Below are positions 18,771-24,013 of a stretch of 64,000 nt of DNA, piece by piece (position 1 is the first letter of the stretch; every line of letters starts with the position of its first letter). Under the pieces are notes generated by a model, which saw only the letters and a list, made by a program, of their open reading frames with translations, made no database searches and was not told the origin of the DNA. This DNA comes from Mycolicibacterium monacense (GTDB lineage Bacteria; Actinomycetota; Actinomycetes; Mycobacteriales; Mycobacteriaceae). The DNA is taken from positions 3,596,001-3,660,000 of the forward strand of contig NZ_AP022617.1 of assembly GCF_010731575.1 (NCBI RefSeq). The letters run 5' to 3'. Both the position numbers and the translations under genes were made by a program.

Positions 18771-19919
18771 TCACTCTTCTTCTGCCGCGCTGCCCGGCAT
18801 CGGTAACGCGACCGTCGTCGTGATCACGGGCGCCGCGACCTGCGGACGTTCGACGGTCGGCGCCGACTGAGTCGGCACCTCGACCTCCACCTCGGGCTCC
18901 GCCACCGGCGGCGCGACCGTCGATGTGATCGTCGTCGGGGGGACGGTCACGGCCGGCGCGGGCGAAGTCGTCGGCTGTGTCGTCGTCACCGGCGCCGAGG
19001 ACGGCGGCGGCAGTTCGACGGGCGCGCGGGTGGTCGTTCCGGGCTCGGCGGCAGCCGACGAGGACGGCGCCGAGGTGGGCGCCGTCGACGGGGCCGACGA
19101 CGGAGGCGGCGGCACCGAGGTCGGAGGCACTGTGGTCGACGGCACTGTGGTCGACGGCACAGAGGTCGTGGGCGCTCCCGACGGATCCGTGGACGACGGC
19201 GGCGTGGCCGGCGAGGTGCCGTCCGACGGCGGCGTGGCGTCCGGTGAGAGCAGCGCGGGCAGCGGCAGGTCCGAGGGCACCTCGGGCAGCACCACCGGCG
19301 GGGCGTCCGGCGGCACCGTCGCGGCGGGGTCGCGGGTTTCCACCTTCACCGACAGCTGCTGCCACTGGTCGACGAGCTCCTGCTGACGGCTGGTGTCCTC
19401 GACCGCGGCGACGGTGGTCGTGAGCGTCTGCAGCTTGTCCTGCGCGGCGGTCCAGTCGCCCTGCTCGATGAGCTGCTGCACCTGGGCCATCTGGGTCTGG
19501 GCGGCCAGCGCGACCTGATCGTCGCGGGTGGCCTGCTGGTCGCCGAAGAGCATGGTGCGCACGCCGTACAGCGGGTCGCCCGGCCCGGCGCCGTAGACCA
19601 CCGATCCGAAGCCGCCCAGACACAGCACCGCCGCGGCCACGGAGCCGACGACGGCCAACGAGAACCGGCGGCGCTGACTGGTCGCGGTGGCGCGGTCCAG
19701 CGCGATCGCCGCGTCACGCGGTGTGACGACGCCGGCCATCGGAGGCTGACGGATCTCGTCGCGCCAGCCGGCCAGCAGGTAGGCCAGCTCGGCCTCGCCG
19801 GAGTCGTACGAGTACACCGGCTGTTCGCCGGCGAGCGCGTCGAGTAGGCGGTCGGTCTGGTTGATCTCGGGCAGCGACGGATCGCCCCCGTCGAGTGCTC
19901 GGCGTGTGAAGTCAGGCAT
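18771..19919 (-). CDS. rsdA: Membrane anti-sigma-D factor RsdA
   Basis: A 382-residue single-pass membrane protein. The cytoplasmic N-terminus (about 1-84) would bind SigD. The transmembrane helix is RFSLAVVGSVAAAVLCLGGF at about 85-104. An extracytoplasmic helical segment to about residue 195 precedes a long Pro/Ser/Thr/Val repeat-rich tail (SVPSTTVPSTTVPPTSVP) that probably spans the cell wall. Gene position immediately after sigD with an 8-base overlap identifies it as the RsdA orthologue (Rv3413c). In M. tuberculosis RsdA is degraded by proteolysis to release SigD. The tail is unusually long and repetitive. Confidence 0.9.
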   Translation of the reverse strand: MPDFTRRALDGGDPSLPEINQTDRLLDALAGEQPVYSYDSGEAELAYLLAGWRDEIRQPPMAGVVTPRDAAIALDRATATSQRRRFSLAVVGSVAAAVLCLGGFGSVVYGAGPGDPLYGVRTMLFGDQQATRDDQVALAAQTQMAQVQQLIEQGDWTAAQDKLQTLTTTVAAVEDTSRQQELVDQWQQLSVKVETRDPAATVPPDAPPVVLPEVPSDLPLPALLSPDATPPSDGTSPATPPSSTDPSGAPTTSVPSTTVPSTTVPPTSVPPPPSSAPSTAPTSAPSSSAAAEPGTTTRAPVELPPPSSAPVTTTQPTTSPAPAVTVPPTTITSTVAPPVAEPEVEVEVPTQSAPTVERPQVAAPVITTTVALPMPGSAAEEE

Positions 19920-20490
19920 GGTCGTGCCCCGTTGCGATGATCTCGGCCTTGAGTCGCGCCAGCGCGCGGTGCTGGGCCACGCGGACCGCTCCGGCGGTGC
20001 TCCCGACGGCCTCGGCGGTCTCTTCGGCGCTCATGCCGACGACGACGCGCAGGATGAGGATCTCGCGCTGCTTGTCCGGCAGCACACCGAGCAGCTTCTC
20101 CATCCGGGCCGACGATTCGGCGTTGATGGCCAGCTGTTCGGGGCCCGCCTCGCCGGAGAACCGTTCCGGCACCACGTCGGTGGGGTCGGATTTGTTTCGG
20201 CTCGCCGCTCGGTGGGCGTCCGCGATCTTGTGCGCTGCGATGCCATACACGAAGGCGAGGAACGGTCGTCCCTGATCCTTGTAGCGCGGCAGCGCCGTGA
20301 TGGCGGCCAAGCACACCTCCTGCGCAACGTCGTCTGCGGACAGACCACTTCGTTCCGTCGCGCCGATCCTGGCTCGGCAGTACCGCACGACGATCGGTCG
20401 AATGGTCTCCAGCACTTCCCGGAGTGCATCTCGATTGCCCGCCACTGCCTCAGCGACGACAGCATCGAGACGATCTCCCGAAAGTGTCAT
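19912..20490 (-). CDS. sigD: ECF RNA polymerase sigma factor SigD
   Basis: A 192-residue sigma-70 group 4 factor. Region 2 spans residues about 25-95, including DDVAQEVCLAAITALPRY and PFLAFVYGIAAHKIADAHR. Region 4 is LPDKQREILILRVVVGMSAEETAEAVGSTAGAVRVAQHRAL. ATG at 20490 aligns with the conserved start (MTLSGDRLDAVVAEAV) and has a GGAG 12 bases upstream; a TTG at 20508 is the alternative but would consume that ribosome-binding site. SigD controls stationary-phase and stringent-response genes in M. tuberculosis and is held by RsdA, encoded next. Confidence 0.95.
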   Translation of the reverse strand: MTLSGDRLDAVVAEAVAGNRDALREVLETIRPIVVRYCRARIGATERSGLSADDVAQEVCLAAITALPRYKDQGRPFLAFVYGIAAHKIADAHRAASRNKSDPTDVVPERFSGEAGPEQLAINAESSARMEKLLGVLPDKQREILILRVVVGMSAEETAEAVGSTAGAVRVAQHRALARLKAEIIATGHDHA

Positions 20491-20577
20491 CGTGGGTGTG
20501 TTCTCCAACGTTACGAACGGCGTATCCGACGGTCTGGCTCAGCTAAACAATAACGATGCCTACGGGCGCCACCCGGA

Positions 20578-21665: not shown

Positions 21666-21763
21666 GTGTGCACGAGTGGTCATCGGCGACAAGTGCTCGG
21701 ATCTGTTCCACGACGCACGCTCTATTTCGTTCCCGAAATGGGTGTTTAGAGAGGGGTTTTCCC

Positions 21764-22054
21764 ATGCCTCAGCCGCAGCAGCTGCCCGGACCCAACGCCG
21801 ACATCTGGGATTGGCAGATGCATGGACTTTGCCGGGGTGTCGATTCTTCGATGTTTTTCCACCCCGATGGCGAGCGTGGCCGGGCCCGCGCCCAGCGGGA
21901 AATGCGGGCCAAGGAAATGTGCCGGCGCTGCCCCGTGATCGCCCAATGCCGTTCACATGCACTCGCAGTCGGCGAGCCATACGGAATCTGGGGTGGGCTG
22001 AGCGAATCCGAGCGCGAGATGTTGCTCAAGCGCGGTATTCGTCGGACCGCCTGA
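21764..22054 (+). CDS. whiB3: Redox-responsive regulator WhiB3
   Basis: A 96-residue Wbl protein. The four iron-sulfur ligands are Cys in GLCRGVD, MCRRCP and AQCRS, followed by the family turn GEPYGIWGGLSESERE and a basic C-terminus. It is nearly identical to M. tuberculosis WhiB3 (Rv3416), which senses O2/NO and intracellular redox state and controls lipid and virulence genes. ATG at 21764 has GAGAGGGG upstream. The frame is open further, but the family begins MPQPxQLPGPNADIW. A strong hairpin follows the gene. Confidence 0.97.
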   Translation: MPQPQQLPGPNADIWDWQMHGLCRGVDSSMFFHPDGERGRARAQREMRAKEMCRRCPVIAQCRSHALAVGEPYGIWGGLSESEREMLLKRGIRRTA

Positions 22055-22142: not shown

Positions 22143-23195
22143 CTAGCGCGCCGCCAGTTCTCGCAGCACCAGATCCGTCGCGGTCCAGTCCATGCATTTG
22201 TCGGTGACCGATTGCCCGTAGGTGAGCGGCCGCGACTCGGCGGACTGCGCACCCCCGACCAGGAAGCTCTCCAGCATCACCCCACTGACCGGAAGCCCCT
22301 CGCGGATCAGCTGGGCCACCTCGGCGGCCACCGCCGCCTGGCGGACGTGGTCCTTGCCGGAGTTGGCGTGGCTGCAGTCGACGACGACCCGTCCCGGCAG
22401 TCCGGCGGCGGTCAGCTTGGCGGCGGCGGCCTGCACGGCATCCGCGTCGTAGTTGGGTCCGTCGGTACCGCCGCGCAGGATGACGTGGCAGTCCTCGTTG
22501 CCCTCGGTGCTCACGACCGCGCCACGGCCGGAGTCGTCCATCCCGAAGAAGACGTGCTGGGCCGCGGCGGCCTTCACCCCGTCGACGGCCACCTGGATGT
22601 TGCCGTCGGTGCCGTTCTTGAAGCCGACGGGCATCGACAGACCCGACGCGAGTTGGCGGTGCACCTGCGATTCGGTCGTGCGGGCGCCGATGGCACCCCA
22701 GGCGACGGCGTCGGCGATGTACTGCGGGCTGGTCGGTTCCAGGAACTCGCATCCGACGGGTAGGCCGATGTCGATGATGTCGAGCAGCAGCTGGCGGGCG
22801 GTGCGCAGACCGCGCGACACATCGAACGTGCCGTCCATCCCCGGATCGTTGATCAGCCCCTTCCATCCGATCGTCGTCCGCGGCTTCTCGAAGTACACGC
22901 GCATGACGATCTTGAGCCGGTCGCCGAGTTCGTCGGCGATCTTCGCGAGCCGGCTTGCGTAGTCCAGCGCGGCGACCGGATCGTGCACCGAGCACGGACC
23001 GACCACGACCAGCAGTCGGTCGTCGCGGCCGGCGAGGATGTCGGCGATCTCGGTGCGGTCGCGGGCCACCCGCTCGGCGCGCCGGGCACCCAGCGGGAAC
23101 TCCGCGAGCACCTCGTGCGGGCTGGGAATCGCGCTGAAGCTGCGGATGCGCCGGTCGGAGGTGGCCGGCGGGGTGGCGATCTGCGCCAGGTTCAT
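22143..23195 (-). CDS. aroG: DAHP synthase, type I (AroG/AroF/AroH class)
   Basis: A 350-residue enzyme condensing phosphoenolpyruvate and erythrose-4-phosphate, the first shikimate step. Class I motifs are VVVGPCSVHDP (about residue 65), RVYFEKPRTTIGWKGLIND (about residue 95), PVGFKNGTDGNIQVA (about residue 190) and VVDCSHANSGKDH. Length equals E. coli AroG. M. tuberculosis uses a type II enzyme (Rv2178c), so this is an additional or alternative isozyme lying between whiB3 and groEL1. The ATG at 23195 begins MNLAQIAT. A leader peptide rich in aromatic codons and a terminator hairpin precede it, suggesting attenuation control. Confidence 0.94.
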   Translation of the reverse strand: MNLAQIATPPATSDRRIRSFSAIPSPHEVLAEFPLGARRAERVARDRTEIADILAGRDDRLLVVVGPCSVHDPVAALDYASRLAKIADELGDRLKIVMRVYFEKPRTTIGWKGLINDPGMDGTFDVSRGLRTARQLLLDIIDIGLPVGCEFLEPTSPQYIADAVAWGAIGARTTESQVHRQLASGLSMPVGFKNGTDGNIQVAVDGVKAAAAQHVFFGMDDSGRGAVVSTEGNEDCHVILRGGTDGPNYDADAVQAAAAKLTAAGLPGRVVVDCSHANSGKDHVRQAAVAAEVAQLIREGLPVSGVMLESFLVGGAQSAESRPLTYGQSVTDKCMDWTATDLVLRELAAR

Positions 23196-23257
23196 TCTCG
23201 AGGTGCCTTTCTGGGGATGGGCACCTGCGTGACGGTCCGGTGCCCTTGAATGACGAA

Positions 23258-23283
23258 AGGCAGCGACCGTGTGGTCACTGCCT
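23258..23283 (-). terminator. Attenuator-type terminator in the aroG leader
   Basis: On the minus-strand RNA, 23283-23273 pairs with 23268-23258: an 11-pair stem with a 4-base loop (ACAC) followed by UUCGUCA. The one non-Watson-Crick pair is a U-G wobble in the minus-strand RNA but would be an A-C mismatch in the plus strand, so the stem is better in the aroG orientation. It sits 63 bases before the aroG start and after the leader peptide. Confidence 0.7.
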
Positions 23284-23284
23284 G

Positions 23285-23350
23285 GGCTCCGGGTGGATGC
23301 GTGCTTAGCGCTGCGCTTTATCGGCTCCGCCCGGAGCCTTGATAAAGCGC
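23285..23350 (-). promoter_or_regulatory. Mutually exclusive leader RNA stems upstream of aroG
   Basis: Stem A: GCGCTTTATC/GATAAAGCGC (23350-23341 with 23322-23313), enclosing GGCTCC/GGAGCC (23338-23333 with 23328-23323). Stem B: GGCTCCGGG (23338-23330) with CCCGGAGCC (23293-23285). A and B compete for 23338-23330. The 5' arm of stem A contains the Phe codon and borders the Tyr and Trp codons of the leader peptide, the layout expected when a stalled ribosome selects between RNA folds. Confidence 0.65.
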
Positions 23351-23379
23351 CAATAGCTGGCACGCACACCGATGTTCAC
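23305..23379 (-). CDS. Leader peptide of aroG (24 residues, SYWRF)
   Basis: GTG at 23379 opens a 24-residue frame, MNIGVRASYWRFIKAPGG followed by ADKAQR, ending TAA at 23305. Tyr, Trp and Phe codons are clustered at positions 9, 10 and 12 (TAT TGG CGC TTT). A TACCCT box (23392-23387) ends 7 bases before the GTG, fitting a leaderless mRNA. All three aromatic end products of the pathway are read in five codons, right at the start of stem A. Attenuation leaders of this kind are well known for amino-acid operons; that this one works is inferred from sequence only. Confidence 0.7.
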   Translation of the reverse strand: MNIGVRASYWRFIKAPGGADKAQR

Positions 23380-23386
23380 GCGGCCC

Positions 23387-23392
23387 AGGGTA
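23387..23392 (-). promoter_or_regulatory. -10 box (TACCCT) of the aroG leader transcript
   Basis: TACCCT matches TANNNT and ends 7 bases upstream of the leader-peptide GTG. The rest of the 305-base gap 23196-23500 holds the leader peptide, competing stems and terminator described separately, and the start region of the divergent DUF6448 gene. Confidence 0.5.
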
Positions 23393-23500
23393 CACCAGCG
23401 GATGCAGCAGACACGAACCGTGGTTGCGAGGGGCCGACGTCACCTGCGGTCCGGGTCTTTCGCCTCTGGCCCACAGCCGTGGAGCGCGAAGTATCGGAGT

Positions 23501-24013
23501 ATGCCTCCGCACTGCGATTCTCTGGACGGTCCCGTCGTCACCGCGGCCAAGGCGGCCTTGACCGAACAGAACGTCGACCTGGTACTGCCGTTCGTCCCGC
23601 AAGCCGCCGAGGAAGAGGTGCGAGCGGCGTTCGAGCGCACCCGGGCCGCGCAGGCCGAGGGTGGGCACTTCGCGCACGAGGTCGCCGACCTGTACTTCTT
23701 CGGCACCGTGGTCCGGTTGCATCGAGCGGGTGAGGGGGCGCCGTTCACCGGACTCAAACCCGCCGGCCTGGACGTCGGACCGGTGATCCCGTTGGCGGAG
23801 CGGGCGATCGAGCAGCGATCGATCGACGACCTCCACGCCTTCCTGTCCGCCGAACTGCGGGAGCAACTGCAGCGGCGCCTCGACCGGATCGGCGCGCTGA
23901 GCGCCGGGGTGACCACACCCGAGCGTCGTGAGTACGTCGAAGCGGTGCTGGGGCTGCAGGTGTACAGCCACCACCTCTACAAATTCATGCGGAAGACCCC
24001 GCACGAAGGCTGA
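23501..24013 (+). CDS. DUF6448 family protein
   Basis: A 170-residue protein starting MPPHCDSLDGPVVTAAKAAL, the characteristic opening of the DUF6448 family, with VDLVLPFVPQAAEEEV and GHFAHEVADLYFFGTVVRLHRAGEGAPFTG following. Several His residues (HC at 4-5, HF, HR, HHLYKF) recur, but no known active site is visible. The family has no established function that I can name. ATG at 23501 is preferred over upstream in-frame starts because the conserved family N-terminus begins there. It is convergent with the Met-rich exported protein gene (2-base gap). Confidence 0.8.
   Translation: MPPHCDSLDGPVVTAAKAALTEQNVDLVLPFVPQAAEEEVRAAFERTRAAQAEGGHFAHEVADLYFFGTVVRLHRAGEGAPFTGLKPAGLDVGPVIPLAERAIEQRSIDDLHAFLSAELREQLQRRLDRIGALSAGVTTPERREYVEAVLGLQVYSHHLYKFMRKTPHEG

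Follow-up and report, generated by a model that had tools for sequence, protein, structure and literature searches.

DAHP synthase is the control point at the entrance to the shikimate pathway, and AroR, an attenuator reportedly described by Neshat et al. in 2014, is said to lie upstream of aroF in Corynebacterium glutamicum. For the attenuator before the DAHP synthase gene of this species, the accessible part of Mentz 2013 (PMC4046766) reports an F-Y-F leader. According to the text of PMC11802643 available to us, transcription at AroR goes up under Phe limitation and Tyr availability has no effect despite the Tyr codon; an LtbR site at the promoters of trpL and aroG is also noted there. Since the Tyr codon of AroR comes without a Tyr response, the presence of a codon in such a cluster is not proof of sensing.

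Attenuators of this general kind are described elsewhere in the Actinobacteria. The accessible portion of PMC13236596 describes a transcription attenuator at the ilvB1 uORF of Mycobacterium tuberculosis and cites leaderless Cys uORFs of mycobacteria. The ilvB1 uORF shares with the locus studied here a mycobacterial leader ORF with sensor codons and competing stems, the premature transcript being that of ilvB1; it differs in its branched-chain codons (LVVI), in its operon and in being described with a Rho-independent terminator. In the trp, leu and ilv attenuators of Actinobacteria, hairpins are likewise preceded by short leader peptides that carry amino acid codons, and several are leaderless in Streptomyces lividans, but in the passages available no Phe or Tyr leader is among them (PMC1262725, PMC8079986): the 2005 survey of Actinobacteria saw no RNA structure conserved ahead of the operons for phenylalanine and tyrosine (PMC1262725, in part), and the 8 leaders in the accessible text of PMC8079986 include no aro gene. 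In the uORFC-13-1 motif of Acholeplasma aroF, a uORF whose Phe codon(s) lie immediately ahead of a terminator likewise precedes a DAHP synthase gene; this motif belongs to another phylum, has an RBS and, in the part of PMC8632094 available, is reported to contain one or more Phe codons but neither Tyr nor Trp. Our literature search, with most subscription papers outside its reach, returned no description of a mycobacterial or a Tyr-Trp-Phe version.

Layout of the locus and comparison with AroR

The window analysed here is a 64,000-nt stretch of the Mycolicibacterium monacense genome. On its minus strand, 23392-23196 comprises a -10 box, a leader ORF, a long stem, a competing stem, a hairpin and a Shine-Dalgarno (SD) sequence, followed at 23195 by the ATG of an aroG-type gene (Table 1); 184 bases separate the leader start from this gene. 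The original prediction, made from the letters of this locus, had named most of these features, and the minus-strand sequence agrees with it on the -10 box, the GTG 7 bases on, the 24-residue peptide with its Tyr-Trp-Arg-Phe run, the long stem whose 5' arm takes in the Phe codon, the competing stem, the hairpin with a wobble as its only imperfect pair, and the type I DAHP synthase downstream.

Table 1. Features of the leader region and the gene behind it (positions in the window)
Feature	Position	Strand	Basis and details
-10 promoter element TACCCT	23387..23392	-	sequence; 7 bases upstream of leader GTG
Leader peptide ORF, 24 codons, MNIGVRASYWRFIKAPGGADKAQR	23305..23379	-	GTG 23379; stop TAA 23307-23305
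Sensor codons TAT TGG CGC TTT (Tyr-Trp-Arg-Phe)	23344..23355	-	TAT 23355-23353, TGG 23352-23350, CGC 23349-23347, TTT 23346-23344
Protector hairpin P1	23313..23350	-	predicted fold: 23350-23341 with 23322-23313; inner stem 23338-23333 with 23328-23323
Segment A GGCUCCGGG, 5' arm of competing stem	23330..23338	-	leader codons 14-17; pairs with B
Segment B CCCGGAGCC, 3' arm of competing stem	23285..23293	-	pairing counts
Terminator-like hairpin T, AGGCAGUGACC/GGUCGCUGCCU, tail UUCGUC	23258..23283	-	sequence; 11 pairs, one of them U.G
Segment C GGGCACCGG, downstream third strand able to pair with B around T	23237..23245	-	pairing counts
Hairpin over aroG Shine-Dalgarno	23201..23226	-	23226-23220 with 23207-23201; SD AGAAAGG 23212-23206
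aroG-type gene, type I DAHP synthase, 350 aa	22143..23195	-	TIGR00034 503 bits; PF00793 299 bits

The RNA 23379-23196 has a folding energy of -95.7 kcal/mol, against -63.9 (sd 4.1) in 200 shuffles, none of which was as low (z -7.8); this fold had been proposed as a check together with masking of the 5' arm, and a mask at Tyr or Trp does give A:B. P1 is the predicted fold when no ribosome stalls, and segment A is concealed in it. A:B in the window sequence has 9 pairs (23338-23330 with 23293-23285), and in some relatives the pairing of segment B reaches CCACCCGGAGCC (23296-23285). A single base (23284) separates B from T; that the competing stem stops 1 base short of the terminator had been remarked on from the start, and the missing overlap recurs in many relatives. 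Rfam 15 gave no match at gathering score in the window and none with E up to 1 in 23150-23420. A 13-base pattern occurs twice in the genome, at the leader locus and as TACTGGCGCTTCA at 3512277.

We recognised the C. glutamicum locus by the primer strings in PMC7356990. It reads MFAARFYFMSGSGASPRQLAISCAT, with A, B and hairpin laid out as in the window. Like the window element, AroR stands before the type I DAHP synthase gene and begins after a TANNNT box without an SD (for the window, the leaderless start is deduced from spacing and SD absence only); likewise, A (GGCUCCGG) and B (CCGGAGUC) come after its aromatic codons, and a hairpin directly adjoins B (fold gap 0). As differences, the AroR codon run is F-Y-F and lacks Trp, its U-tract is strong and no C is visible, where the window has Y-W-R-F, a weak U-tract and a C. 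Because of this Y-W-R-F motif the window element is not classed as an F-Y-F AroR: on sequence grounds it is a positional counterpart of AroR with other codons, and AroR is its closest relative. Two loci, L244 and L261, of the genus group that holds the C. glutamicum-like genome (g27), carry W-R-F-Y-F leaders (MRNWRFYFEWGSGR, MRMWRFYFSKAPEAETS); Trp is therefore present in part of the genus and absent in C. glutamicum AroR.

The original prediction had also regarded a leaderless-mRNA leader peptide that senses three amino acids in a mycobacterium as unusual. Leader-peptide attenuation in mycobacteria is already known, for example in the ilvB1 uORF (PMC13236596, in part) and the leaderless Cys uORFs, and leaderless or aro-gene attenuation is no novelty either, given the S. 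lividans attenuators (PMC8079986, in part) and the C. glutamicum attenuator before the same gene (PMC4046766 and PMC11802643, both in part). Our verdict is that the element is real and ordinary in kind. What is new is its three-aromatic form with conserved rare codons and its reach from Mycobacterium to Streptomyces.

Around the element, the divergent ORF 23372-24013 (+) contains a DUF6448 domain starting near residue 51. As its listed ATG (23372) falls inside the opposite-strand leader and the domain begins only at about residue 51, the true start probably lies further downstream. A WhiB regulator (21668-22054, +) and a sigma-70 family factor (19912-20508, -) are encoded near the gene; we take them to resemble whiB3 and sigD of M. 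tuberculosis.

Conservation of the leader and its codons

The type I gene is present in 139 of 396 genomes of the genus Mycobacterium and in 248 of 397 genomes of the order (E up to 0.001). We compared the upstream regions of 137 of the 139 genus orthologues (G079 and G196 were left out), 73 non-Mycobacterium loci of the order among the matches listed for the 248 genomes, plus L012-L014, and loci of other Actinobacteria from named contigs. The leader rule asked for TANNNT, 6-8 bases, ATG or GTG, and 8-40 codons with at least three F, Y or W within six. It was satisfied by 134/137 Mycobacterium regions, by 68/73 of the non-Mycobacterium loci of the order among the matches listed, and by 20/29 of the other Actinobacteria loci; on reverse complements there were no matches in any group (0/137 for Mycobacterium), and shuffled Mycobacterium regions gave a mean of 0.0/137 over 10 shufflings. 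Named carriers include Mycolicibacterium iranicum, M. colombiense, Williamsia, Gordonia, Tsukamurella, Dietzia, Catellatospora, Streptomyces, Isoptericola, Glycomyces, Kribbella, Nocardia, Rhodococcus and Amycolatopsis. The rule detected no leader at two Nocardiopsis loci, Gryllotalpicola, one Streptosporangiales locus, four loci of the bifidobacterial family, and L014, the sole locus examined of the family labelled f16; at L282 none was found by the rule or by eye. The Streptosporangiaceae locus L053 shows the motif by eye outside the rule, probably because its ORF is longer than 40 codons, and L011, L124, L132, L243, L266, L267 and L277 also look related by eye though outside the strict rule.

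A TANNNT box lies 6-8 bases before the in-frame ATG or GTG leader start in all 137 Mycobacterium loci, and at this spacing before only 34 of the 2868 other RTG codons in the same regions. Of the 134 rule-passing leaders, 121 have a distance of 7 and 13 a distance of 6, and none of six SD-like pentamers sought before the leader start was present in any of the 137 loci. From the fixed -10 spacing and the lack of an SD we infer that the mRNA is leaderless, with transcription starting at the leader GTG (23379). The same counts bear on the reading that a small functional protein or a chance ORF, without regulatory role, happens to sit beside unrelated stems. Nothing specific speaks in its favour, and the absence of reverse-strand matches, the co-occurrence with the DAHP synthase gene, the fixed spacing and the covariation described below speak against it; we rejected the chance ORF on the leader-rule counts versus controls and the promoter-linked start (137/137), and give the whole reading next to no credence.

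The cluster motif is YWRF in 133 and YWLF in 1 of the 134 rule-passing Mycobacterium leaders; natural exceptions occur among the 3/137 rule failures, namely HWRF (L011) and YRRF (L124, L132), with His for Tyr and Arg for Trp. Phe, Tyr and Trp are all in the cluster in 134/134 Mycobacterium and 88/90 other actinobacterial leaders, a co-presence that the rule does not impose (any three aromatics suffice). The codons are rare ones. Phe is UUU in 134/134 Mycobacterium leaders versus 19/373 in 40 ORFs of the window with 200 or more codons and a GC3 of 0.75 or above, and Tyr is UAU in 129/134 versus 36/267; in the body of the type I gene in 37 loci, UUU accounts for 5/330 Phe and UAU for 5/183 Tyr codons. 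Conserved UAU and UUU may sharpen a stall. The 3' arm of P1 is variable (U-A to U-G, mismatches) and the codon arm nearly constant. Because the one varies while the other hardly changes, the sequences suggest that codons rather than pairing hold the sequence of the codon arm.

YWRF is followed by APGG in most of the leaders listed, and constancy of this sort could point to an arrest peptide, in which a free aromatic amino acid would cause the nascent YWRF-containing chain itself to stall the ribosome. We think this very unlikely: order and neighbours vary across families (YWRF, YFWF, YRWF, WYQRF, FYWF; FYF in C. glutamicum), the codons for APGG lie in segment A and its inner partner, so that RNA pairing can explain this motif, and the preference for rare codons points to decoding.

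Conservation and covariation of the stems

Pairing was counted in an alignment of 38 divergent sequences, L051, L310 and L261 having diverged too far to be included. In A:B, 95.2% of cells are paired, with both sides changed at 4 of 11 pairs, and hairpin T in 93.7%, with both sides changed at 4 of 10. For the partner-swap test, segments were cut by position in 40 hand-picked representatives and subjected to 10000 permutations. Because related sequences are not independent, the results of both tests are strong hints and not probabilities: no shuffle of 500 and no slid version reached the pair counts observed for A:B plus T on five measures, and A:B bound its own partner at -23.3 versus -18.8 kcal/mol for swapped ones (0/10000 permutations; own partner best in row in 9/40), the arms of T likewise preferring their own. 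The competing stem A:B thus covaries across families. The original prediction had named a lack of conserved aromatic codons and of covariation in orthologous leaders as what would speak against it; in the alignment the aromatic codons are conserved and the stems covary, which supports its reading as ribosome-mediated attenuation.

For P1 with the inner stem and T, 0 to 8 of 500 shuffles reached the five measures in the 38 sequences, and four of six slid versions surpass the set in the number of doubly changed pairs. When B:C and T were counted together, 0 to 6 of 500 shuffles reached the measures, and one slid version was higher and one equal in that number. Of the two parts of B:C, one has 73.7% and the other 81.1% of its cells paired in the 38 sequences, and B:C retains one mismatch in 35 of these and in 120 of 123 near relatives. 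Its own partners bind at -17.2 versus -15.1 kcal/mol for swapped ones (0/10000; 1/10000 in 25 representatives of GGCUC type; best in row in 2/40). A direct A:C pair was rejected, as its own partner was no better than swapped ones (831/10000, 40 representatives). Segment C is conserved in mycobacteria and several other groups.

The near-relative set held 123 of 153 sequences after near-duplicate removal, L016 and L234 being lost for want of an anchor. In its fast-growing group B:C is paired in 87%, C:D in 96% and D:E in 97% of cells; the slow-growing group is weaker, with 77% for C:D and 67% for D:E. The hairpin over the aroG SD (23226-23201) is paired in 97% of cells in fast growers, and a modelled stall leaves it unchanged.

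Loci of the Nocardia, Rhodococcus and Amycolatopsis type (L061, L091, L105, L083) have YFWF leaders and a different stem plan. In these a downstream GGGUCGGCC-like strand, shortly before the SD, resembles the inner partner of A, and the hairpin has no adjacent U-tract; they are possibly a translational version.

Modelled ribosome stalling and the proposed mechanism

We modelled the ribosome as an unpaired stretch (mask) in equilibrium folding. Without a ribosome the probability of A:B is 0.00 in the window sequence and 0.35 on average in 106 of the 123 near relatives, where it exceeds 0.5 in 32%; a modelled stall at Tyr or Trp takes it from 0 to 1 in the window. By A-site codon, the mean over the 106 near relatives is 1.00 for Tyr, 1.00 for Trp, 0.78 for Arg and 0.42 for Phe, and the distances to segment A are 17, 14 and 8 bases in all 106. 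P1 and A:B are thus mutually exclusive stems, switched by the Tyr/Trp mask, in the window sequence and its near relatives.

A codon scan sampled 25 of 111 sequences with footprints reaching 10, 12 or 14 bases to the front. From two codons before Trp up to Trp, 8.9-9.0 of the 9 A:B pairs formed. At the three fronts respectively, Arg gave 9.0, 8.0 and 5.9 pairs and Phe 7.0, 5.0 and 1.6. Further upstream the means were about 5 to 9 pairs, and the window sequence was high again 7-8 codons before Trp at some footprints (8.7 of 9 at -7, front 12). By these pair numbers Tyr and Trp appear well placed and Phe marginal, at the edge of a window of positions whose upstream side is not sharp in the model. 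The original prediction held that one leader could sense Tyr, Trp and Phe together; Tyr and Trp do fall in the modelled window, Phe lies at its edge, and joint sensing of all three would go beyond these results.

Equilibrium folding does not make the switch general. Transcripts of the 40 representatives, ending at the end of T, were folded both ribosome-free and with a stall at the first aromatic codon; 6 or more A:B pairs formed in 21 and 32 of them, respectively. The stall added at least 3 pairs in 13, and fewer than 6 formed in both states in 8, some through a misplaced T. As A:B is predicted regardless in 21 representatives, the off state there would come from the ribosome at the stop codon and not from P1. 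With the mask at the stop codon A:B still reaches 0.96 in the near relatives; a ribosome there would sit between A and B, and we infer that it forbids the pairing sterically.

The name "terminator-like" is apt for T, as its U-tract is weak. The tail is only UUUCGUCAUU, T escapes a terminator scan that requires at least 5 T in 8, and the first 8 bases hold 4 T in 98 of 132 mycobacterial loci and 5-6 in 34. In the window sequence A:B takes no base from T, and folding keeps T in both states; classical strand exchange therefore does not explain antitermination there. The printed gap between A:B and T is 0 or 1 in 28 of 40 representatives, the unpaired end base not counted, and 6-8 in 6 of 40, C. 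glutamicum included, in some rows because the stem-loop search misplaces T. Part of the family does show overlap, since among 26 hand-picked sequences the stalled fold of the Amycolatopsis representative captures the hairpin's 5' arm.

Our preferred reading, to which we assign a probability of about 0.78, is that a ribosome-mediated attenuator on a leaderless mRNA would set the level of type I DAHP synthase by the supply of charged aromatic tRNA, with Tyr and Trp probably sensed by virtue of their position and Phe less surely. Transcription would start at the leader's own GTG. With amino acids plentiful, the ribosome would be at the stop codon between A and B, or gone with P1 hiding A; B would stay single and T would halt RNA polymerase ahead of the gene. 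When Tyr or Trp is short, the ribosome would halt with its front just before A and block P1, and A would pair with B, as modelled for Mycobacterium, whereupon T would no longer halt transcription. Because A:B adjoins T without overlap, we propose that it would hinder T sterically in the polymerase exit channel, not by competing for bases; this is the weakest step. We hold it doubtful that one leaderless family from Mycobacterium to Streptomyces combines both properties, reading all three shikimate end products through one rare-codon run (Tyr, Trp, Phe) and blocking termination sterically, without a shared base, through a three-strand switch (A:B or B:C) flush with the hairpin.

Two other readings were considered. 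The weak U-tract of T and its absence from the terminator scan would suit premature termination, Rho-dependent or pausing-based, that translation of the leader would prevent, T being only a pause or stability hairpin, and so would a Dietzia locus (L057) without a U run directly after the stem and the Streptosporangiaceae locus (L053) with none visible. Simple Rho access, however, needs neither the adjacency of A:B to T nor its covariation across families, and U-tracts are better in C. glutamicum (UUUUUUG) and the 34 mycobacterial loci above; we judge this reading unlikely. The stall might instead open aroG translation, not transcription, through a relay: A:B would leave C free to pair with D, which would in turn release the SD (E). 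The idea was derived from the chain of complementary segments. The B:C, C:D and D:E pairings are conserved, most strongly in the fast-growing group, B:C partners beat swapped ones in all 10000 permutations, and the signs of the relay would fit. Mean SD openness, however, is 0.55 with and without the stall (101 of 123 sequences folded), a Tyr stall opens the SD by more than 0.1 in 11 sequences and closes it in 11, C:D and D:E are weaker in slow growers, and no C is visible in the C. glutamicum sequence. As the modelled SD openness is unchanged we rejected the relay, which we consider improbable. 

The preferred attenuator is tied to its gene across genomes. A covariance model of the element, run on 61 genomes with stricter filters that lose weak matches, matched in 12, once each and directly upstream of the gene; all 12 are among the 14 genomes with the gene, and the 47 without it gave no match. 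Of the two misses, G050 has a leader of another type (VTRSYRWF..., L013) and G051 none by the rule (L014). Type II DAHP synthase was found in all 41 genomes searched, that of the window included, so the attenuated type I is a second enzyme and mycobacteria with the element appear to hold two DAHP synthases. If the reading is true, an end-product switch on the second enzyme would explain how the cell brings in extra capacity only when aromatic amino acids are short. The leader lets three-way sensing be tested codon by codon, and it provides a case in which to study how an antiterminator can act without overlapping its terminator. The mycobacterial element also fills a gap left by the 2005 survey, as far as its accessible text goes (PMC1262725).

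Outside the Actinobacteria, at 10 of 48 loci a type I DAHP synthase gene is preceded by a leader-like ORF rich in aromatic residues, such as MQVRSAFYFYFWFSVPGG (shuffles, mean 0.4/48). These ten (L070, L071, L072, L086, L102, L103, L104, L108, L118 and L120) are labelled Comamonadaceae, Burkholderiales or related betaproteobacteria.
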